This document shows positions 6,469-57,760 of a stretch of DNA of 64,000 nt, one piece after another. The stretch's first letter is position 1, and every line of letters begins with the position of its first letter. Below the pieces are notes generated by a model. It was not told the origin of the DNA, made no database searches, and was given only the letters and a program-made list of their open reading frames with translations. Made by a program: the position numbers and the translations under genes. This stretch comes from a virus: positions 1 to 64,000 of the IMG/VR virus record IMGVR_UViG_3300014501_000016, one strand, 5' to 3'.

Positions 6469-7047
6469 ATGGCGAGACGGAAAATTTCGACAGTTGAGCC
6501 GGTGGATCTGGTCCCGTTTTCGGACATCATCCAGGACGATCACAATGCGAACCGGGGAACGAAACGCGGCGGCGAAGTGATCAGAAAGTCGCTCCAGGAC
6601 TATGGCGCCGGCCGGTCCGTGTTGCTGGACAAGAATAACCGGCTGATTGCCGGCAACAAGACGCTTGGCCAGGCGGCGGGTGGCGGAATCAAGGGCGTGC
6701 GCATCATCGAGACCGATGGCACGGAACTGATCGCCGTAAAACGGATGGATTTGGACTTGTCGACGGACTCGAAAGCGAAGGGTCTGGCGGTCGCCGACAA
6801 TCGGGCCAGTGAATTGTCGCTCGAATGGGACCGGGGCGTGCTGAAGTCCCTGGAGATTGACCTTTCGCCGTTCTGGGACGAGAAGGAATTGGCCGGGCTG
6901 CTCGAGGATAAGCCACTCAAGACCTTGCAGCAGGAGATGAACCTGTCCTACAAGGTGATTGTGCAGTGTGACAGCGAAGCGCATCAGGGCCAACTCATGC
7001 AGAAACTCGAAGCGGAGGGTCTAAAGTGCCTGCTTTTAATTTCATAG
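6469..7047 (+). CDS. ParB/sulfiredoxin-fold N-terminal domain protein
   Basis: 192 residues. The ParB-like core is visible as VDLVPFSDIIQDDHNANRGT, RSVLLDKNNRLIAGNKTLGQ (the recycling/ligand-binding GNKT-type box) and GLAVADNRASELSLEWD. The family contains CTPases of plasmid partition, nucleases and phage proteins. There is no C-terminal dimerisation or clear HTH region, so ordinary plasmid partition is unlikely. It overlaps the ABC-GNAT gene by 22 bases, indicating coupled synthesis and probably a joint function such as DNA recognition or nucleotide-dependent loading. That joint role is inference. Confidence 0.85.
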   Translation: MARRKISTVEPVDLVPFSDIIQDDHNANRGTKRGGEVIRKSLQDYGAGRSVLLDKNNRLIAGNKTLGQAAGGGIKGVRIIETDGTELIAVKRMDLDLSTDSKAKGLAVADNRASELSLEWDRGVLKSLEIDLSPFWDEKELAGLLEDKPLKTLQQEMNLSYKVIVQCDSEAHQGQLMQKLEAEGLKCLLLIS

Positions 7048-8138
7048 TCGAGTCGGAGATTGAACAGACGATTCGCGTCCGTCAACTCTCGGCGATGTTC
7101 GATGTGCCGGCGGCCGAACGCGCGCGAATCGAGTTCAAGGGCGATTTGCCTATCGAGACTTTCGATTGGAATGTGGGGCTGATCGTGGGCCCGTCCGGGT
7201 GCGGCAAGTCCTCCATTCTATCGAGGATGTTCGCGGCTCCGCCTGTGCTGGACTGGGGATCCCGGAGCGTGATCGATGACTTCGACAAGGCTTATTCGAT
7301 GCAGGACATTTCGGAGATCTGCCAGTCGGTTGGATTCAATACGATACCGGCCTGGATGCGTCCCTTCGCGGTTTTGTCCAATGGGGAACGGTTCCGGGTC
7401 GAGCTCGCGCGCCGGCTGATGACGTCGGAGCCGATCATCGTCATGGACGAGTTTACGTCCGTCGTCGATCGCCAGGTGGCACAGATCGGGGCCCACGCGG
7501 TCCAGAAGTACATCCGCAAGACCGGCAAACGGTTCGTTGCGGCGTCGTGCCACTATGACATCCTCGACTGGCTGCAACCCGACTGGGTTCTCGAGCCGGC
7601 GACCATGAACTTTGCACGGAGGTCACTTCAAGGACGCCCGCCCATTGACGTCGAAATACGGCGCGTCTCGTATGACTACTGGAAAATGTTCTCTCCATTT
7701 CACTATTTGACGGCTGAACTCAACCACGCGGCGGCATGTTTCTGTCTCTTTGTGAATGGGCGGCCGGCGAGTTTCTGCGGCGTGTTGCACCGTCCGCATG
7801 CGAAGGTAAAAAACCTGAAGGCGATCTCCCGTCTGGTCACGTTGCCGGACTGGCAGGGACTCGGGCTGGCACTCATCCTATCGACGAGACTGGCGGAGGC
7901 TTATCGTGCTCTGGGTTTTCGCTTCCGGATGTACCCGGCGCATCCGTCGCTCATTCGCTCATATGCACGGCGCGGCGACCTCTGGGGTTTGGTCAAGAAG
8001 GGCGGAACGTTCAGCCCTCGGGAGGGTCTGACGTCTTCCGCGGTGGGCGCGTTCGGCGGTCGACCCTGCGCAGTGTTTGAGTATATCGGTGCGCCGATGG
8101 AATTGCTGCCAGCCAAAGAGTTTTTGAAGGTGGCTTAG
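7026..8138 (+). CDS. ABC-type ATPase fused to a GNAT/Mom-like acyltransferase domain
   Basis: 370 residues from GTG 7026 with GGAGGG upstream. The N-terminal half is a soluble ABC ATPase: Walker A GPSGCGKSS (about residue 54), signature LSNGERFRVELARRL, Walker B IIVMDEFTSVVD and an H-loop ASCHYD. There are no membrane helices. The C-terminal half (about 190-370) looks like a GNAT fold: FHYLTAELNHAAACFCLF, SRLVTLPDWQGLGLALILS (an acetyl-CoA-loop-like segment) and FRMYPAHPSLIRSY. Mu Mom, a DNA-base modifying enzyme, also has a GNAT fold. With the ParB-like partner this suggests ATP-driven DNA scanning plus base modification, unproven. A Smc/Rad50-like ABC with an acetyltransferase of proteins is the alternative. 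Confidence 0.85.
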   Translation: MPAFNFIVESEIEQTIRVRQLSAMFDVPAAERARIEFKGDLPIETFDWNVGLIVGPSGCGKSSILSRMFAAPPVLDWGSRSVIDDFDKAYSMQDISEICQSVGFNTIPAWMRPFAVLSNGERFRVELARRLMTSEPIIVMDEFTSVVDRQVAQIGAHAVQKYIRKTGKRFVAASCHYDILDWLQPDWVLEPATMNFARRSLQGRPPIDVEIRRVSYDYWKMFSPFHYLTAELNHAAACFCLFVNGRPASFCGVLHRPHAKVKNLKAISRLVTLPDWQGLGLALILSTRLAEAYRALGFRFRMYPAHPSLIRSYARRGDLWGLVKKGGTFSPREGLTSSAVGAFGGRPCAVFEYIGAPMELLPAKEFLKVA

Positions 8139-8220
8139 GCATAGGCGCCCCGAAGCCAGGCCTTCGCTAGGGCCATCGGGACGAACCCGACGCACTGCGG
8201 ACGTCTGGAGCGGGAAAACG

Positions 8221-8622
8221 CTAGAGTGTGACGGTGTGCAGAGTTTGCTTTCCCATGTGTGGTTTCGGCTGATCGAGCGGGCGGGGGTTGGCCAGCACCC
8301 AGTGATAGTGTCCGGGCATTGCCCAACGCGATCGCGAGTTCGTGACGATCTCGATCAACTCGACGGTGCCGAGGATGGCGCCGATGACGAGCTTGTCGGG
8401 GTCGAGTCCAAGCGTGGCGCAGATGGCTGGGTCGAGACGTCTGCCAGCATGGATTGCGAGCCGGCCGCGGTGTTCAGTCGACCAGGTCCGGTTCTCGACG
8501 TCTTTGCCGAGTTGAAAGATTGCGGCCGCCCAATGCGCGTGAAGAGTCAAACAGGGCAATGTCATTGAACCAGACTCCGGGATGAGGCAGTCGGAAAGTT
8601 CTCCGTAGGTGAATAACATCAC
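8221..8622 (-). CDS. ASCH (PUA-like) domain protein
   Basis: 133 residues from GTG 8622, which overlaps the AAA+ stop; ATG 8619 or an internal ATG at 8565 are alternatives. It has the ASCH signature: LTLHAHWAAAIFQLGKDVENR, TWSTEHRGRLAIHAGRR, GAILGTVELIEIV and HYHWVLANPRPL. ASCH domains are PUA-like nucleic-acid binders; some act on modified nucleosides. It is last in the leftward DUF932/AAA+ operon and convergent with the ABC-GNAT gene. A role as reader or processor of a modified base would fit this context. That is inference. Confidence 0.85.
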   Translation of the reverse strand: MMLFTYGELSDCLIPESGSMTLPCLTLHAHWAAAIFQLGKDVENRTWSTEHRGRLAIHAGRRLDPAICATLGLDPDKLVIGAILGTVELIEIVTNSRSRWAMPGHYHWVLANPRPLDQPKPHMGKQTLHTVTL

Positions 8623-9671
8623 GCCTTCATCCCGGCGACAAGCGACATCGCCTGTTCAAAACTCTCCCGTTTGACCAGGAGACAGGGCTGTTTTGGCGCG
8701 CGTGGCAGGTTGCTGGTTCTAACGTCTCGGATGAGAGTCTCGACCGAGTGCGAGATTAGCAAGCGGTCGATGCGTTTCAGGCGGTCGACGGCCTGGCCGG
8801 CATAGACTCGCTTCCACTGGGGCACGTAACGGCCGGCTGGGTTCGGTTCAGGAGCTGGTCTGCAGTGTTTCGGCGGCTCAGATTTTGGCTCTGGCTCGAT
8901 AACCGGAACGGGACGCGGGGCGCCGGTGAGAATGTCTACTTGCATTCTCATCAGCGATTCGCGGATTCCTCCACCGCGAGCGAGCTGATGGAAGTATGTG
9001 CTGTCAACGTCGAAGTCGGGAGCCTCTTTGGTCCAGACGCGCATCAGGTATTCGCTCAGTGCATCCTCCGTGAGTGGCTCGAAGGGGATCACCATGCAGC
9101 GGCTTAGAAAGCGTTTCTCAAGCGTTTTGGGCGGGACGATTCCCTGATCGCCGGTTCCGTTGGCGGTGAAAATCCAGATGATCGGGGGCGGCGACTGTCG
9201 CATGGACGCGCCTCCGAATCCGGTAACGAGTGAGGCGGTTGCGTCGAGTCGGGACAAAAACTGAATCTGGGCCTTTTCGCTCATCTGATCCGCTTCGTCG
9301 ACCAGACAGACCCAGAACTTACCTTTGGGCGGGTGATAGGCGAATCGATCGCGCAGGCTGTCGAGGGTAGCGACGTCGCACTTCTGCGACTGGATGTGGA
9401 CCAGGCTGGCTTCTAGATCATCGGCGAAACAGAGACCGGCAATCGTCTTTCCGATTCCTGGATTGCCGACAAAGAGCATGGCGCAGGCTCGCGGTGCCTT
9501 TACGAGTGCGTTGAGGATTCGGCGCGGCGCAGTGAGCCCGACCATGTCGTCGAGCTTGCGGGGCTGATATTTCTCCGCGAGGGTGAGCGGAAAGGCGATC
9601 ACGGGCTGGTCGTCTTCCGCGAAGCCAAAGGGTGACTGCGGGTCTTGGGCGAAGATTGTTTGCGTGTTCAT
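8619..9671 (-). CDS. AAA+ ATPase, clamp-loader (RFC small subunit)-like
   Basis: 350 residues from ATG 9671, the start that overlaps the previous stop (ATGA). The RFC-box-like opening is LAEKYQPRKLDDMVG, followed by Walker A VGNPGIGKT, Walker B CLVDEAD, sensor 1 IIWIFTAN and an arginine-finger-like EKRFLSRC. A lid domain follows, then a Pro-rich linker and a basic C-terminal helix region. Members load sliding clamps or remodel DNA-bound complexes. A full phage replication set is elsewhere in the window, so this copy probably serves its own cassette. Its partner is unknown. Confidence 0.82.
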   Translation of the reverse strand: MNTQTIFAQDPQSPFGFAEDDQPVIAFPLTLAEKYQPRKLDDMVGLTAPRRILNALVKAPRACAMLFVGNPGIGKTIAGLCFADDLEASLVHIQSQKCDVATLDSLRDRFAYHPPKGKFWVCLVDEADQMSEKAQIQFLSRLDATASLVTGFGGASMRQSPPPIIWIFTANGTGDQGIVPPKTLEKRFLSRCMVIPFEPLTEDALSEYLMRVWTKEAPDFDVDSTYFHQLARGGGIRESLMRMQVDILTGAPRPVPVIEPEPKSEPPKHCRPAPEPNPAGRYVPQWKRVYAGQAVDRLKRIDRLLISHSVETLIRDVRTSNLPRAPKQPCLLVKRESFEQAMSLVAGMKA

Positions 9672-10195
9672 TTGATCTCCGCTTTCGGGAAACACTCGAC
9701 GCTGGCGTGATACCAGCGGGCCGAGGTTGAGTCTTGCGTGTGTCCAGTCGAGGAGGAACACCGGCGGTGATGCGCATCGCTGCGTTCGCCGCAGTTGCAA
9801 TACCATGCGGTTAGTTTCTGGAGGCATCGTTCTGCGGCAGCCTCGGTATGATGTTTGTGGCCGCAGTGCGCGCTTATCTCGTACTCGCAGTTTCCGCCAT
9901 CGCGATCTTGGGTCCACGAGTTGGGGTCTCGAACCACGACAGAAAAGGTGCGCCCATCCCACACCGGGCGGGGAGTCTTTACTGCGACTGCATCTGGCCA
10001 GGCGCAAGCGGTAATGCCGGAGCCATGCAAAGCGTTTTCCGCCGCCCACGCCGCCGAAGAGTGTGTAAAGTAAGACGGCTTGAGACTCGCATTGAGCTGA
10101 GCAATCTTGGCATGGATATAGGCATGTTGATCGGTGGGGATGTCAGAGGGTATGCGGGCTACGATGGTGGGCTGATACATTGTTTGGCTTGTCAT
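9668..10195 (-). CDS. hypothetical Cys/His-rich protein
   Basis: 175 residues from ATG 10195, with GGGAGGAC just upstream. The C-terminal third carries many Cys/His (CEYEISAHCGHKHHTEAAAE, then WYCNCGERSDAHHRRC), suggesting a zinc-binding fold. The N-terminal part has no recognised domain. Its stop overlaps the AAA+ start (ATGA). It probably acts with the AAA+ ATPase; the reaction is unknown. Confidence 0.65.
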   Translation of the reverse strand: MTSQTMYQPTIVARIPSDIPTDQHAYIHAKIAQLNASLKPSYFTHSSAAWAAENALHGSGITACAWPDAVAVKTPRPVWDGRTFSVVVRDPNSWTQDRDGGNCEYEISAHCGHKHHTEAAAERCLQKLTAWYCNCGERSDAHHRRCSSSTGHTQDSTSARWYHASVECFPKAEIK

Positions 10196-10408
10196 GATGT
10201 CCTCCCGGACGTTTTCGAATTGAGGGCGAGTATACGTCATCACTCACTCCCCGGTGACGCTGTCGGCTAGATATGTCGATAAAATTATGAGCGCGGCGGA
10301 AATCGCCGGGCTGAAACAGATGGCAAGAAAGACGTTCACGGGCGCACCTCGGGCGTTGGGTTGTGGGCGAGGGGTGAGCTCGCCCGTGTTCAAGTGGATC
10401 AAGGAATT

Positions 10409-10612
10409 TTAGGCGGCGGCGGCGGCGGTCTTGAGTTCCGCCATTTTCTCGGCGAGCGTCCACAGGGCGCGATTCAGTTTGACGTCCTGATCGATGCCGT
10501 TGACGGTCCGCGTGGTGACGTTGCGACGTTGACGCCGGCCGCGCTCATCGGTCGTGATCGCGATGCCGTGAAGTCCGCCCTTGATGACGTTCTCCTGGAC
10601 GACGTTCAAGGG
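10409..10612 (-). pseudogene. frameshifted C-terminal part of the DUF932 protein
   Basis: In the frame one base off from the upstream gene, this stretch encodes NVVQENVIKGGLHG, then TTRTVNGIDQDVKLNRALWT and LAEKMAELKTAAAAA. This is the conserved C-terminus of DUF932 proteins. Removing a single base in the GGG at 10610-10612 (CCC on the coding strand) would join it to the upstream frame to give 304 residues. It may be a real mutation, a sequencing error or +1 frameshifting. Confidence 0.65.
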
Positions 10613-11324
10613 TACGCCACAGATCGGATGCGGCGGTGTTATGGCCGTAGCCGCGGTCCTGGGCATCTTCGGCGCGGCGCGGGGAGAGTAGCTGGGCGGG
10701 AGTAATCGGGGTCGTGACTTCGCCTTCAGAGTTGGCGAAACGGAGTTCGTGGGCAGCAGCAGCGAAAATCTGTTGTTCGCCATTGGTCAACTGAAGGCGC
10801 GACCAATCGCTCACGACGTCGAGGGCCTTCACGCTGCGATCGATGACGGCGAAAGATCCTTCGATCACCTGATGGACGATGTTGCCGGTGTGGTTGACTT
10901 TGAGGGTCTGGCCGCCGGGCTGGCTGACGAACATCCCGTTTAGGCACGTAAGACGATACATGGCTTCCATCAGCCAATAGGAAGATGAGCCGTCGTGGGA
11001 GTTCATGAGGGCAACTTCGGGAACAACGTCGCCAACTTGGCGGGCGATATCGGTCGAGACATGACGGAAACGGATCATGTGTTTTGTGAAATCCTGCTTC
11101 CCCTCGACGCGGGTGCGGCTCTGCACTGCGGAGAAGGGCTGGAATCCTTCGCGCATCAGGGCATTGATGACGTCGCCGGTCGGGACGTAAGCGTAACGGC
11201 TGGAGCGGGATTCGTGAGGGGCAGGAGCGAAAGCAGAGGGCGCGAACTTGCGGACTGCTTCGAGGGTGATGGGCTGTTGGACTCGGTTGATGGACGTCGG
11301 GCGGGGTGCGGTGAAAGTGTTCAT
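10545..11324 (-). CDS. DUF932 family protein, C-terminus displaced by frameshift
   Basis: Starting at ATG 11324 with CAGGAGAC upstream, this reads SSRYAYVPTGDVINALMREG, GFQPFSAVQSRTRVEGKQDF, a conserved NSHDGSSSYWLMEAMYRL block and LTCLNGMFV. These are typical of the DUF932 (phage/plasmid-related) family, which has no known biochemical role. After DLWRT the frame departs from the family and ends in an Arg-rich tail at 10545, while the true C-terminus continues in another frame down to 10409. It is first in the leftward operon with the Cys/His protein, AAA+ ATPase and ASCH protein, behind a good sigma-70-like promoter. Confidence 0.78.
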   Translation of the reverse strand: MNTFTAPRPTSINRVQQPITLEAVRKFAPSAFAPAPHESRSSRYAYVPTGDVINALMREGFQPFSAVQSRTRVEGKQDFTKHMIRFRHVSTDIARQVGDVVPEVALMNSHDGSSSYWLMEAMYRLTCLNGMFVSQPGGQTLKVNHTGNIVHQVIEGSFAVIDRSVKALDVVSDWSRLQLTNGEQQIFAAAAHELRFANSEGEVTTPITPAQLLSPRRAEDAQDRGYGHNTAASDLWRTLERRPGERHQGRTSRHRDHDR

Positions 11325-11595: not shown

Positions 11596-12129
11596 ATGGG
11601 CAAGCGCGGGCCAGCACCGAAACCAACAGAATTAAGAAAGCTCGAAGGCAATCCCTCGCGCCGTCCGATGCCGAAGAACGAGCCGCAATATCCAGCCGGG
11701 CTGCCAGTAAAGCCGAAACGGATGAGTCCTGGCGCCGCGCGGATCTGGGAAAAGCTGATCGACGAAATGGCCGGCGCATACATCCTGCGCAGCGTCGACC
11801 AGCGGGCGTTATGGCATCTCTGCGAGGACGAGGCGCTCATTGAAGAGGCTTACGCGGGCATCTGGAAAATGATTCGCACGCTGAAGAAAAAAGCGAAGGC
11901 GGAAAACAAAGTGCTCCCGGGCGGTGCGGTGATGGCGTTGCTAAGCATGACGAGCGGGCGCATGGCCATGTCCTCGGTTCGGGATCTGAGCGTGCGGGCA
12001 GTCATTCAGCGGCGCGAGTTCGGGTTAACTCCTTCATCGCGATCCAGGGTTGAGACCCTCGACGCGCAATTCAGCGGCGGGACCACTGGCGGGCCCGTGG
12101 ATCCGCTGGAGATGAAACTGTGTGGGTAG
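11596..12129 (+). CDS. terminase small subunit, P27 family
   Basis: 177 residues beginning with the family hallmark MGKRGPAPKPTELRKLEGNP. A helical DNA-binding region follows (AARIWEKLIDEMAGAYILRS, then RALWHLCEDEALIEEA), with a basic segment GIWKMIRTLKKKAKAE. It recognises the packaging site and regulates the large subunit. The stop overlaps the GTG start of the large subunit. Confidence 0.92.
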   Translation: MGKRGPAPKPTELRKLEGNPSRRPMPKNEPQYPAGLPVKPKRMSPGAARIWEKLIDEMAGAYILRSVDQRALWHLCEDEALIEEAYAGIWKMIRTLKKKAKAENKVLPGGAVMALLSMTSGRMAMSSVRDLSVRAVIQRREFGLTPSSRSRVETLDAQFSGGTTGGPVDPLEMKLCG

Positions 12130-13813
12130 CAACTACCGACCGGACACGTGCGCCTATTGTCAGACCGACACATGGTGCGAGACCAGATCGAACGGTAAGC
12201 CTCAATGCCGCGGGTGCAAAGTCGAGGCGTTCTACGAGCGGGTGTTGTATCCGCCGCTGAATCTCCAGCTATTGGGTTGGGGCAGGACGGTCATCAGGAG
12301 CTTGTTTGGAACGGTAAAGCTGGATGATGGGAAAAGACGTTTCCGTCGCGCGTATGTTTCTACTCCAAAACAAAACGGCAAGTCCTTTATTGTCGGCGGC
12401 ATGCCGCTATATCACATCCTCATGGAGGATGAACTAAACCCGGAAGCATACGGATCGGCGGCCGCGAAGGAGCAGGCCGGCATCGTGTTCAAGGCATCCG
12501 CGATGTTGGTGAATGCGAACCCGGAGTTGCGCGCCAGACTGAAAGTTTTGCCGAGCACAAAACGAATCATCCGGCGCGACGGCGGGGGAACCTATCAAGT
12601 GCTTTCGGCAGACGGCAATGTTCAGGACGGCATTCGTCCGAGTCTAAACATCCGGGATGAAATGCACCGCTGGAAGACCGCGGCGGCCCAGACGCTTTAC
12701 GAGGTAACAACCAAGGGCCAGATCAGTAGAAGCGAGCCGCTGGATATTGCGATCACGACTGCCGGCGCGGAGTACGAGTCACCGCTTTGGTTCGCCGAGT
12801 ACGAATTCGCAAAGCGGGTGTTGTCGGACCCGACCGCGTCGGATAACTTTTACGCGGCAATCTGGGAAGCGAACAATGCCAAGATTAAGGCGGACCCGGA
12901 ATACTGGAAATCGCGCGAGGCGCGTGTCGAAGCGAACCCCAGTCATGAGGATCGGGGCGGATTTCTAGAAGATGCGGCGATCGTTGTCGAACTTGAGAAG
13001 GCACTTGTTCAGCCAGCGAATAAATCGTCATATCTGCGCTATCACCTGAATGTCCCAATGACTTCGCAGACCGACCCAATCATCGAAACGGCGAAGTGGC
13101 TGGCATGTGATGGCGGGGTCGATCTCCGGACATGGCCAGTATTCGACGTCGAGTTGTTAATCCGAAAGTGGGGCCTGCTGGAGCGACGCTGTTATGTGGG
13201 CGTGGACGCATCCTGGACAACGGACATGACGGCGGTGGTCTTCGGGTTTCCGCCCGAGAAGGATGACGAACCGTGGAAGTTGCTGCCGTTCTTCTGGATC
13301 CCCCAGGAGAAGGTATCGGACTTCGCACGTATTTGCCGGGTTCCGATTCAAAGTTGGGTTGAGCGCGGATTCGTCGAACAGACGCCAGGCAACGCTTACG
13401 ACCTTCGCGTGGTGAGGGAGCGGATCCAGTGGGGTCGGCAAATGTTCGACATCCAGGAGTTGGCCTATGACCGCGCGAATTTTCGCAGCACTGCGATGGA
13501 AATCAACGATGAGGACGGCATAACGGCGATTGAGGTTCCGCAGAATTTCATGCAGTTGAGCGCGCCGACCAAGTTTCTTCTGGCCGCGTATCTAGATAAG
13601 AAGATCGCGCACGCCAATCACCCTGTCTATAACTGGCACGCCGCCTGTTTGCAAGTTCAATATGACCGCAAGGACGGGGTGCAGCCATCGAAACCGGAAC
13701 GGCTCAAGTCCTCGAAGCGCATCGACGGAATCCAGGCCACGGTGACAATGCTCAATCGCGGGATGCTCGCGCCGGTGCGGCAATACACCAGCACGACGGT
13801 CGGGTGGATATGA
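12122..13813 (+). CDS. terminase large subunit
   Basis: 563 residues. The N-terminus has a CAYCQTDTWCETR...CRGC zinc-ribbon-like element. The ATPase follows, with YVSTPKQNGKS as the Walker A region and LNIRDEMHRW as Walker B. The RNase H-like nuclease domain begins at CYVGVDASWTTDMTAVVFGF, which carries catalytic Asp residues, and later ELAYDRANFRSTAMEI. It cuts concatemeric DNA and drives packaging into proheads. GTG start coupled to the small subunit. Confidence 0.94.
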   Translation: MGSNYRPDTCAYCQTDTWCETRSNGKPQCRGCKVEAFYERVLYPPLNLQLLGWGRTVIRSLFGTVKLDDGKRRFRRAYVSTPKQNGKSFIVGGMPLYHILMEDELNPEAYGSAAAKEQAGIVFKASAMLVNANPELRARLKVLPSTKRIIRRDGGGTYQVLSADGNVQDGIRPSLNIRDEMHRWKTAAAQTLYEVTTKGQISRSEPLDIAITTAGAEYESPLWFAEYEFAKRVLSDPTASDNFYAAIWEANNAKIKADPEYWKSREARVEANPSHEDRGGFLEDAAIVVELEKALVQPANKSSYLRYHLNVPMTSQTDPIIETAKWLACDGGVDLRTWPVFDVELLIRKWGLLERRCYVGVDASWTTDMTAVVFGFPPEKDDEPWKLLPFFWIPQEKVSDFARICRVPIQSWVERGFVEQTPGNAYDLRVVRERIQWGRQMFDIQELAYDRANFRSTAMEINDEDGITAIEVPQNFMQLSAPTKFLLAAYLDKKIAHANHPVYNWHAACLQVQYDRKDGVQPSKPERLKSSKRIDGIQATVTMLNRGMLAPVRQYTSTTVGWI

Positions 13814-55093: not shown

Positions 55094-55520
55094 GCTTCAC
55101 CAGCCCGACTACCCGAGCTTCCTCGCCAGGTACAGATAAAACTCGCTCGAGGATGCGAACCCACTTTTCAAGGCCGCCGACAAATAAGTGCAGGCATAGT
55201 TCACAAAGAGCACTCCGGCAGTTCCAGTGCGGCTGTCCGCAGTATTCGCAACGGGACTCCTTTGGCGCCCGGATCGCGGATCGCCCAAAGGTCTCAATCT
55301 CGTGGCAGCGGGCGCACAGGGACTCTAAATCTTCCAGCGCCTCGCTTCCCAGATTCGCATAGGTCTTATGGTGGATATGAAGATCTTGGCCGTAAGCAAT
55401 TTCAACCAACCAACGAGGCATCGAGCATCGAACACATTCATCATGTACCGCCAAAACCTCCTGCCGTTTCTCTTGCCAGTGATCGCTCGCCAGATATTCC
55501 GCATACTCTGTTTTGGTCAC
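55086..55520 (-). CDS. HNH endonuclease
   Basis: 144 residues. SDHWQEKRQEVLAVHDECVR, CSMPRWLVEIAYGQDLHIHH and KTYANLGSEALEDLESLCAR-CHEIE give an HNH core of the type that starts with an 'YLxSxxW' helix. A second Cys cluster follows (CEYCGQPHWNCRSALCELC). It sits between the helicase-methyltransferase and the replisome organiser, overlapping both. Confidence 0.85.
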   Translation of the reverse strand: MTKTEYAEYLASDHWQEKRQEVLAVHDECVRCSMPRWLVEIAYGQDLHIHHKTYANLGSEALEDLESLCARCHEIETFGRSAIRAPKESRCEYCGQPHWNCRSALCELCLHLFVGGLEKWVRILERVLSVPGEEARVVGLVKRG

Positions 55521-57760
55521 TCCGACACCTCTTCCATATCGGAATCAGTCGCAAACAATCCCGACGACGCGCTCAGGGCATTTCCTAGATTACGGCAAGC
55601 CTGCTGGTAGAAACTGGGCTTTAGCTCGCTCCCGAGGAACCGTCGTCCCATTTCCAACGCAACGAAACCTTCTGAGCCAATGCCAGCGAACGGGCTCCAC
55701 ACCACGTCCCCGGGATTCGACCATAACTTGACGGCCCGACGGATCACCTCCAGTTGCAGCGGGCAGATATGGCGCTCGTCGTTGTGCTCTCTCGCCGACC
55801 GGTATTGAAGCGTGTCCGATGGGTTGATGTCCATCCAAACCGGCGACGCGTATTGCTGCCACAACTGAACAGGGAAGTCTTCCGAGGTGTGCTCCACCCG
55901 CTCGGGGTTGTCGCCTGGCTTGCGCATGGTAACCAGATAGTCAGGCACTCCCTGGCGGCTCATACATGAGTCTTTTTTGATCTGTTTATGGAGAAGGCCA
56001 AGCGCTTTTGTCCGCTGCATGGCAGTGACCGGATCTTTCCATATGCAGACCTCGGAGTGATAAATAAATCCCGCGGCCTCAAAGGCGCGGATAATTTCGC
56101 CGCGAAAGTCGCGTATGCCGATAACCCCATCGCGCACCTTCGACGTGGGCAGATTCATGCAGTGGATCGATACTAATCGGCCGGGCATTATGGCGCGGTA
56201 TGACTCTGCTATCAGGAACTTGTAATGCTCCCAGAATTCGCCAGCGTCCCGGGAATTGCCAAAGTCCCGCTCCGAGTTGGAGTACGTGTAGAGCGATTGG
56301 AATGGCGGGGAATAAACCGAGTAGTGGATGGAATCGCTCGGCAGTTCGCGCGCCAGGTCCACGCAATCGGCAAGATGCATGGTCCAATTAGCAGAGTCGC
56401 GAACCTCGCGAGCATAGTTTGACTCGCTGCGCACGGTTCCTTTAAGGTTCATCCTGGTAAGTTCCTGCATGTTTTGAAGCATCTCTTCCGCCATCTCCTC
56501 GGCCTCCCTCTCTTTGCGTTTCAGGTTTTCAAGTACGTTGCCTTCAGTGGAAGCCGCGATGATGTGCGCGTGGACCGGCCGGTTCTGGCCAAACCTCCAA
56601 CAGCGCCTGATGGCCTGATAGAACTGCTCCCATGAGTCATTCACGCCAACGAATGCCTGATGTGAACAGACTTGGTAATTCATGCCGAACCCAGCGATAG
56701 AGCACTTAGTCACAAACTTAGGGATTCTGCCGGCCGCGAACTCGAGCGATTTCCACGTCTTGTCTTCGGGATCATCCGATCCTGTAAGTTCCACGGCGCC
56801 CTTGATTGCAGCGGTCAAAGACTGGCTCTCGGTATTCAAGTTAGTCCAGATAATCCAGTTCTCGTCTGGCTCCGCGGCCACGATCTCAGCGCACTTCTTT
56901 ACGCGAGCGGCGACCGTGGACCGGCGCGCGGACAATCGCTCAGAGAGGGTTTGCGCCGGCATAGCAAACAGCATTCCATCGCTGGGCTTTTCTACGTCAA
57001 CGATGTGTTCGTGGTAGATCAGCGGCGGGAGCACGAAAGGCCCATCGTCATAGCCGATGTCGGACGGCTTGCGAATGTTGACAGCCCAAGAGCATACCCA
57101 TTTCCAAAACTCTTTGCGCGCGTGACCTTTGAGTCTCCACTTTTGCGTCTCGCCGCCATCATGGACAAAGAACATGGACAGCATTTCCGTTGCGCTCATC
57201 ACTCCCAGGAACTCGGCGTGGTTGCCTAATTCCATATGGTCGTTTGGTGCAGGCGTCGCAGTCGCAGCGAGCCGATACGGTGTATCCGCAAAAACCTCGA
57301 TCAACCGGGCCCTAGTTTTGCCATCAAAAGACTTCAAAATGCTGGATTCGTCGAGAGCCACGCCTGCGTAGTCCGATGGATCGAACCCGTCCAGGCGTTC
57401 GTAGTTTGTAATCACGACAGAACTGGTCGGCTTGCCGGACTTTTGATAAGCTGCGTCAATGCCAAACTTTGTAGCTTCGCCGATAAGTTGATGGGCGACG
57501 GCCAGCGGGGCGAGAATTAACACCGGGCTCCCGGTCTGTTGCTCCACGATGCGCGCCCAGTCTAACTCAATGAGAGACTTTCCCATGCCCGTGCCCAGGA
57601 ACGCCGCAGACCTTCCCAGGCGGAGCGCCCACATCGTTACGTCGCGTTGGTGTGGGAACATGGCAGAGTTGAGCTCGGGCACCTCGATCATGCCAGCGAT
57701 CCGTGGTGTGAACCTTTTATCGGCAAGAAACTGTTCGTAGCTCACGCAATCACCCGCCAT
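55517..57760 (-). CDS. SNF2-type helicase fused to a DNA methyltransferase
   Basis: 747 residues. The N-terminal ATPase: FPHQRDVTMWALRLGRSAAF, Walker A LGTGMGKSLIELDWAR, LDESSILKSFDGKTR, LAATATPAPND, and a C-terminal RecA lobe with FYQAIRRCWRFGQNRPVHA. The methyltransferase follows from about residue 470: motif IV HYSVYSPPFQSLYTYSN, later motif I region WSNPGDVVWSPFAGIGSEGF. The S-P-P-F box indicates an amino (N4 or N6) methyltransferase. It may methylate phage DNA while translocating, to evade restriction. Fusion in one chain is seen in other phages; specificity unknown. Confidence 0.88.
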   Translation of the reverse strand: MAGDCVSYEQFLADKRFTPRIAGMIEVPELNSAMFPHQRDVTMWALRLGRSAAFLGTGMGKSLIELDWARIVEQQTGSPVLILAPLAVAHQLIGEATKFGIDAAYQKSGKPTSSVVITNYERLDGFDPSDYAGVALDESSILKSFDGKTRARLIEVFADTPYRLAATATPAPNDHMELGNHAEFLGVMSATEMLSMFFVHDGGETQKWRLKGHARKEFWKWVCSWAVNIRKPSDIGYDDGPFVLPPLIYHEHIVDVEKPSDGMLFAMPAQTLSERLSARRSTVAARVKKCAEIVAAEPDENWIIWTNLNTESQSLTAAIKGAVELTGSDDPEDKTWKSLEFAAGRIPKFVTKCSIAGFGMNYQVCSHQAFVGVNDSWEQFYQAIRRCWRFGQNRPVHAHIIAASTEGNVLENLKRKEREAEEMAEEMLQNMQELTRMNLKGTVRSESNYAREVRDSANWTMHLADCVDLARELPSDSIHYSVYSPPFQSLYTYSNSERDFGNSRDAGEFWEHYKFLIAESYRAIMPGRLVSIHCMNLPTSKVRDGVIGIRDFRGEIIRAFEAAGFIYHSEVCIWKDPVTAMQRTKALGLLHKQIKKDSCMSRQGVPDYLVTMRKPGDNPERVEHTSEDFPVQLWQQYASPVWMDINPSDTLQYRSAREHNDERHICPLQLEVIRRAVKLWSNPGDVVWSPFAGIGSEGFVALEMGRRFLGSELKPSFYQQACRNLGNALSASSGLFATDSDMEEVSE

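Follow-up and report, generated by a model that had tools for sequence, protein, structure and literature searches.

The ParB/ABC-GNAT locus of the window

The window analysed here comprises 64,000 bases of the 66,891-base IMG/VR virus record IMGVR_UViG_3300014501_000016. Upstream of its terminase genes lies a ParB-like gene that overlaps by 22 bases (6469–7047 and 7026–8138) a gene encoding an ABC ATPase and a GNAT acyltransferase in a single chain (hereafter ABC-GNAT). Comparison with related loci indicates that this pair is very probably a phage DNA base-modification module. The features of the locus are as follows:

6469–7047, plus strand: ParB/Srx-fold protein of 192 residues (phrog_620, E 9e-17) with a conserved C-terminal tail domain
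6949–7044, plus strand: ParB tail domain (residues 161–192), kept in the partners of ABC-GNAT and a stand-alone open reading frame (ORF) in Mu-like phages
7026–8138, plus strand: ABC ATPase-GNAT acyltransferase fusion of 370 residues with a GTG start (Pfam, PHROG, AlphaFold2, Foldseek, motifs)
8221–8622, minus strand: ASCH/PUA-like protein, convergent with ABC-GNAT, a recurrent partner (phrog_3193; ASCH-annotated homologues)
8619–9671, minus strand: clamp-loader-like AAA+ ATPase, probable accessory (Pfam AAA, 2.6e-6; PHROG clamp loader, 6e-18)
9668–10240, minus strand: orphan Cys/His-rich ORF of 190 residues, matching no family
10409–11324, minus strand: DUF932 gene, broken (Pfam DUF932, 2.5e-31; tblastn against intact relatives)
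11596–13813, plus strand: terminase small and large subunits, shown for orientation (most relatives have the module a short way upstream of terminase)

The gene positions of the original prediction, made from the letters of the window, were all borne out, including the overlap of the ParB gene with an intact ABC-GNAT gene. That prediction had also described a four-gene operon facing ABC-GNAT; the genes are located as claimed, but the frameshift in DUF932 had been overlooked. In a Pfam search the 192-residue ParB protein had no match and showed neither a helix-turn-helix (HTH) nor a ParB-family domain.

Domain structure and conservation of ABC-GNAT

Both domains of ABC-GNAT pass the Pfam cut-off (ABC_tran, 1.9e-8; Acetyltransf_1, 2.1e-5), and residues 8–359 match phrog_11143 (E 6e-99), a 357-residue phage family without an assigned function. 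The AlphaFold2 model, built from a 42-sequence alignment of the window protein and its relatives, consists of an ABC nucleotide-binding domain (residues 1 to ~190) and a GNAT domain (~200–355), with a pLDDT of 90.7 and a pTM of 0.82. A Foldseek search with this model returned ABC nucleotide-binding domains and GNAT enzymes, including 2ae6, from the PDB, and a single full-length viral match, in Leptospira phage LE4 (TM 0.81). The GNAT fold that had been proposed for the 7026–8138 product is thus supported with high confidence. The protein combines complete ABC motifs and a GNAT domain in one chain and is homologous to the family over its full length. COG2401 is an archaeal ABC-acetyltransferase, on which the literature search gave no paper.

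The ABC domain contains Walker A (55–63), the signature (117–124), Walker B and D-loop (137–149) and the H-loop (174–178), and the GNAT domain an HY motif (226–227) and the acyl-CoA motif QGLGLA (277–282). Across the 42 sequences, which are 31–79% identical to the window protein, all of these ABC motifs are invariant or nearly so, as are the F..HY that opens the GNAT domain and V..P..QG.G, which binds acyl-CoA. Their retention over this range implies that the window protein is very probably active.

Distribution and linkage to ParB and terminase

A tblastn search with ABC-GNAT matched 67 phage records, among them phages of Gordonia, Streptococcus, Leptospira, Aeromonas and Pseudomonas. Further relatives were found in viral contigs (162) and bacterial genome contigs (468), and the best 80 of each were analysed; in total, 181 loci were collapsed into dereplicated groups with a threshold of 65% identity. 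Directly upstream of ABC-GNAT, 63 of 69 such groups have a ParB gene or a lone ParB tail, so the expected co-inheritance of the two genes held. The commonest ParB/ABC-GNAT junction, present in 62 loci, is identical in length to that of the window, and in locus L121 ParB, tail and ABC-GNAT form a single open frame. The large terminase subunit (TerL) is encoded within 6 kb in 41 of 58 groups, typically with ABC-GNAT just upstream of terminase. Many copies in bacterial contigs adjoin terminase and portal genes, and these neighbours identify them as predicted prophages or phage-like elements. ABC-GNAT modules are frequent beside terminase and portal genes in Planctomycetes and Nonomuraea genomes (L109-L128, L105-L178), where the copies may belong to active prophages or to elements derived from phages.

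Among phages infecting Streptococcus, Oenococcus, Lactococcus, Enterococcus and Thomasclavelia, the GNAT domain is encoded in a different frame (-1) from the ABC domain, with an overlap of ~97–136 nucleotides at a homologous spot (L086 5576–6070, L090 4073–4561, L091 4076–4555, L092, L093, L094, L095, L305, L307 and L309). The overlap has no ATG, GTG or TTG start in most of these loci, yet codes for conserved GNAT residues. It is possible that -1 frameshifting yields both ABC alone and the fusion in these Firmicutes phages; comparison of the overlap regions found no slippery site common to all of the loci. Phages of the Streptococcus phocae phage Javan420 type (L304 and L096) show a further interruption of the GNAT frame, after 69 codons. 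Tenacibaculum phage pT24, also among the tblastn matches, carries an in-frame TGA within the GNAT domain (L088 5694–5696); the two ORFs annotated there together make up a single ABC-GNAT.

A ParB tail associated with the enzyme

The window ParB ends in 32 residues, YKVIVQCDSEAHQGQLMQKLEAEGLKCLLLIS, that are found again at the C-termini of ParB proteins encoded ahead of ABC-GNAT. Mu-like Pseudomonas phages lack the ParB domain, and the tail persists there as an ORF of 49–66 residues immediately before ABC-GNAT. Within the genus Sourvirus, phages with different cassettes share the N-terminal domain of ParB, and the tail varies with the enzyme: BiggityBass, NHagos and Jace (the last outside Sourvirus) have the ABC-GNAT type, a second type is common to CaiB and Nigel, and a third occurs in Sour. 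From this pattern we infer that the tail may be an adaptor that docks the modification enzyme.

Exchange with DNA-modification cassettes at two genomic positions

In Sourvirus, a genus of Gordonia phages, the interval between ParB (gene 1) and TerL is occupied by different cassettes. BiggityBass and NHagos carry ABC-GNAT and a formyltransferase-fold protein there, and gene 2 is of the ABC type in several further phages. In Sour the same slot holds a queuine-type transglycosylase (TGT), QueC, QueD, QueE and GTP cyclohydrolase. CaiB has a P-loop kinase there, together with a Tet_JBP-like protein and an amino acid:DNA transferase (ADDT, E 5e-27), and the related phage Evaa has methyltransferases. 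The terminases of NHagos, CaiB and Sour are 66–80% identical to that of BiggityBass. In Mycobacterium phage Rosebush the deazaguanine (dpdA-type) pathway has been shown experimentally to modify DNA, placing dPreQ0 at ~28% of G (PMC6884629), and the TET cassette is named in the announcement of CaiB (PMC9302106). The CaiB cassette thus shares its slot, a related ParB and its genus with the ABC-GNAT cassettes, and differs in its oxygenase/kinase/amino acid:DNA transferase chemistry. In Dpd/7-deazaguanine phage systems, for which Nigel was compared as an example of the ParB-TGT-terminase order, the ParB gene likewise overlaps that of a base-modifying enzyme just upstream of terminase, whereas a transglycosylase and Que enzymes replace ABC-GNAT and the ParB tail is of another type.

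The second exchange is seen in Mu-like Pseudomonas phages, where ABC-GNAT stands at the right end, after the tail-fibre genes, preceded by a Com zinc ribbon (PF10122, E 3e-18) and then the tail ORF, and followed by a formyltransferase. In Mu this place is taken by com and mom, the Mu record describing Com as the translational regulator of Mom. Relatives of the window ABC-GNAT therefore sit in the place of mom behind com. Mom, which makes N6-carbamoylmethyladenine, also has a GNAT-type fold (PMC7824862), and the HY motif is present in both proteins. In contrast to ABC-GNAT, Mom lacks both an ABC domain and a ParB tail, and profile homology between the two is not detectable; the window itself has ParB upstream and no com, which is confined to the Mu-like relatives. 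Direct homology to Mom was considered and dropped, given an hhalign probability of 0.1 and the lack of Mom among the top 50 viral fold matches of the ABC-GNAT model in Foldseek.

Each of the two exchanges is suggestive when taken alone. Occurring as they do in unrelated phages, the two together point to DNA modification as far more likely than any other function of the module.

ASCH, AAA+ and DUF932 partners

The window ASCH protein falls below the Pfam cut-off (ASCH, E 0.18) but matches phrog_3193 (E 7e-33), has phage homologues annotated as ASCH, and corresponds to copies that do pass the cut-off in L086, L090, L092, L095 and L215. ASCH-type genes occur within 6 kb of ABC-GNAT in at least 16 of 58 groups, the search profiles having been narrow, compared with 1 of 77 control loci. 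A convergent ASCH gene that starts less than 1 kb from the 3' end of ABC-GNAT, as in the window, is present in 20 loci; this convergence recurs in many unrelated loci, and in Firmicutes phages ASCH is co-directional with ABC-GNAT.

The other genes of the convergent block appear in varying combinations. L215 and L216 repeat the layout of the window (ParB, ABC-GNAT facing ASCH, AAA+ and DUF932, with terminase beyond), the AAA+ homologue of L215 being 37% identical to that of the window, and in L224 ParB, ABC-GNAT, DUF932, AAA and ASCH are all co-directional. L127, L136 and Jace possess ASCH and DUF932 without AAA+, and the nearest relatives, L002 and L012, have ParB, ABC-GNAT, ASCH and terminase without AAA+ or DUF932. 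The absence from L002-L012 had led us to regard AAA+, the orphan and DUF932 as unrelated passengers, a reading that was revised when the layout recurred in L215/L216 and L224. In scans anchored on DUF932, ABC-GNAT was nearby in just 5 of 87 loci, which indicates that the AAA+ and DUF932 genes are optional accessories. They appear to form a separate conserved pair in many phages, mostly as an independent module, and ASCH is judged to be linked to ABC-GNAT more tightly than they are. In L225, L229, L231, L232, L234, L238 and L244, all without ABC-GNAT, the gene immediately before DUF932 encodes a clamp-loader-like AAA+ protein. Used as a single-sequence probe of viral contigs, the window AAA+ found no relatives.

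The window DUF932 gene contains one extra base at ~10610, which leaves frames 10548–11324 and 10412–10783, and its N-terminal piece matches Pfam. The gene is intact in L211, L212, L213 and L127 (tblastn), and the window copy is either genuinely broken or an assembly error. In L215/L216, which come from two samples, DUF932 is also frameshifted near this C-terminal region (L215 3983–4811), at another base than in the window.

Two further sets of enzymes were observed. In Jace, ABC-GNAT is followed by a CoA-transferase-III-like protein and an aspartate decarboxylase (PF02261, E 2e-33), noted at L083 7101–8212, which might supply a group of the beta-alanine type. In the window, 55517–57760 encodes an N6/N4 DNA methyltransferase joined to an SNF2-like helicase, which probably provides a second DNA-modification activity; this fusion, together with an integrase gene, makes the phage look temperate.

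Proposed function and alternatives

Most likely, the module protects the DNA of the phage itself by adding a chemical group to it. In the scheme that we infer for substrate, donor, order of events and the role of ASCH, the ParB domain would bind or clamp phage DNA and its C-terminal tail would dock or recruit ABC-GNAT, whose ABC domain may engage or distort DNA through ATP-driven dimerisation. The GNAT domain would then use a CoA-type donor to acylate or aminoacylate the amine of a base, at a late stage of infection close to packaging, so that modified virion DNA would be shielded from restriction. Lineage-specific side enzymes such as the formyltransferase and aspartate decarboxylase would make or finish the group, and the probable role of ASCH is to bind DNA that carries the modification, or the modified base itself. 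As the side enzymes vary by lineage, we guess that the transferred group may vary too. A more specific version is offered only tentatively, the full combination being somewhat doubtful: an ATP-dependent, ParB-targeted acyltransferase might make a new class of DNA adduct, with swappable ParB tails as adaptors for one targeting platform and ASCH reading the mark, the group being amino-acid-derived, formylated in some lineages and beta-alanine-like in others.

Several observations weigh against base modification. The hhalign comparison of the ABC-GNAT profile with Mom showed no similarity, the Mom alignment being shallow; adjacent ParB and the terminase context are absent in the Enterococcus 9184, TR-TP2 and pT24 relatives; ParB-like and GNAT proteins act on proteins and nucleotides too; and the literature search gave no DNA analysis of any phage bearing the module.

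Most GNATs modify proteins or small molecules, and the GNAT domain might accordingly acylate a protein such as terminase, portal or a host factor, with ParB and ABC serving as a DNA-bound switch for packaging or late regulation. The nearness of TerL in 41 of the 58 groups would then reflect packaging. This explanation is unlikely: it accounts neither for the replacement of mom after com nor for the Sourvirus swap with deazaguanine and TET cassettes and the formyltransferase partner, and Mu-like and other positions away from terminase occur. Partition is harder still to reconcile with the data. PHROG labels the ParB a "partition protein", and the ABC protein could be imagined as its motor; ParABS systems, however, combine a ParA partner with an HTH-containing ParB, and the window has an ABC ATPase-GNAT partner instead of ParA and a 192-residue ParB without HTH or ParB-family Pfam domain, while copies in related phages are linked to terminase. 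We give this reading almost no weight.

A GNAT acting on RNA or aminoacyl-tRNA, as a toxin or in translation control with ASCH/PUA binding RNA, is very improbable as well. RNA binding is common among ASCH/PUA domains. Some GNATs are aminoacyl-tRNA toxins (PMC7641849). Yet a ParB or ParB tail is the constant partner here, the locus swaps with DNA-modification cassettes, and a toxin-antitoxin layout is not present. Targeting of DNA by ParB and ABC with modification of a base by GNAT, as originally predicted, is the explanation best supported by the fold, the co-inheritance and the two slot exchanges. The original prediction also gave the ASCH/AAA+ side a putative role in reading or processing the mark.

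Relation to earlier predictions and implications

Base acylation was predicted for GNAT-ABC proteins by Iyer et al. 2013, as restated for jumbo phages in PMC7824862 with pT24 as an example. These predicted systems have the same domain pair and are the closest known kind; the window differs in its extra convergent block of ASCH, AAA+, orphan and DUF932 genes. The idea of base modification is therefore already published, and the window adds one family member with a recurrent accessory block. The literature search found no experimental test of the 2013 prediction, nor any paper describing the exchange in Sourvirus, the link to com, the ParB tail or the convergent ASCH, some of which Iyer et al. 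2013 may mention.

The slot exchanges, above all that in Sourvirus, give a clean comparison, since related phages available in culture carry different cassettes at a single locus. If true, the proposed function would add a widespread DNA-modification chemistry, would explain the presence of ParB-fold proteins beside phage base-modifying enzymes and would make ASCH a candidate reader of the mark.

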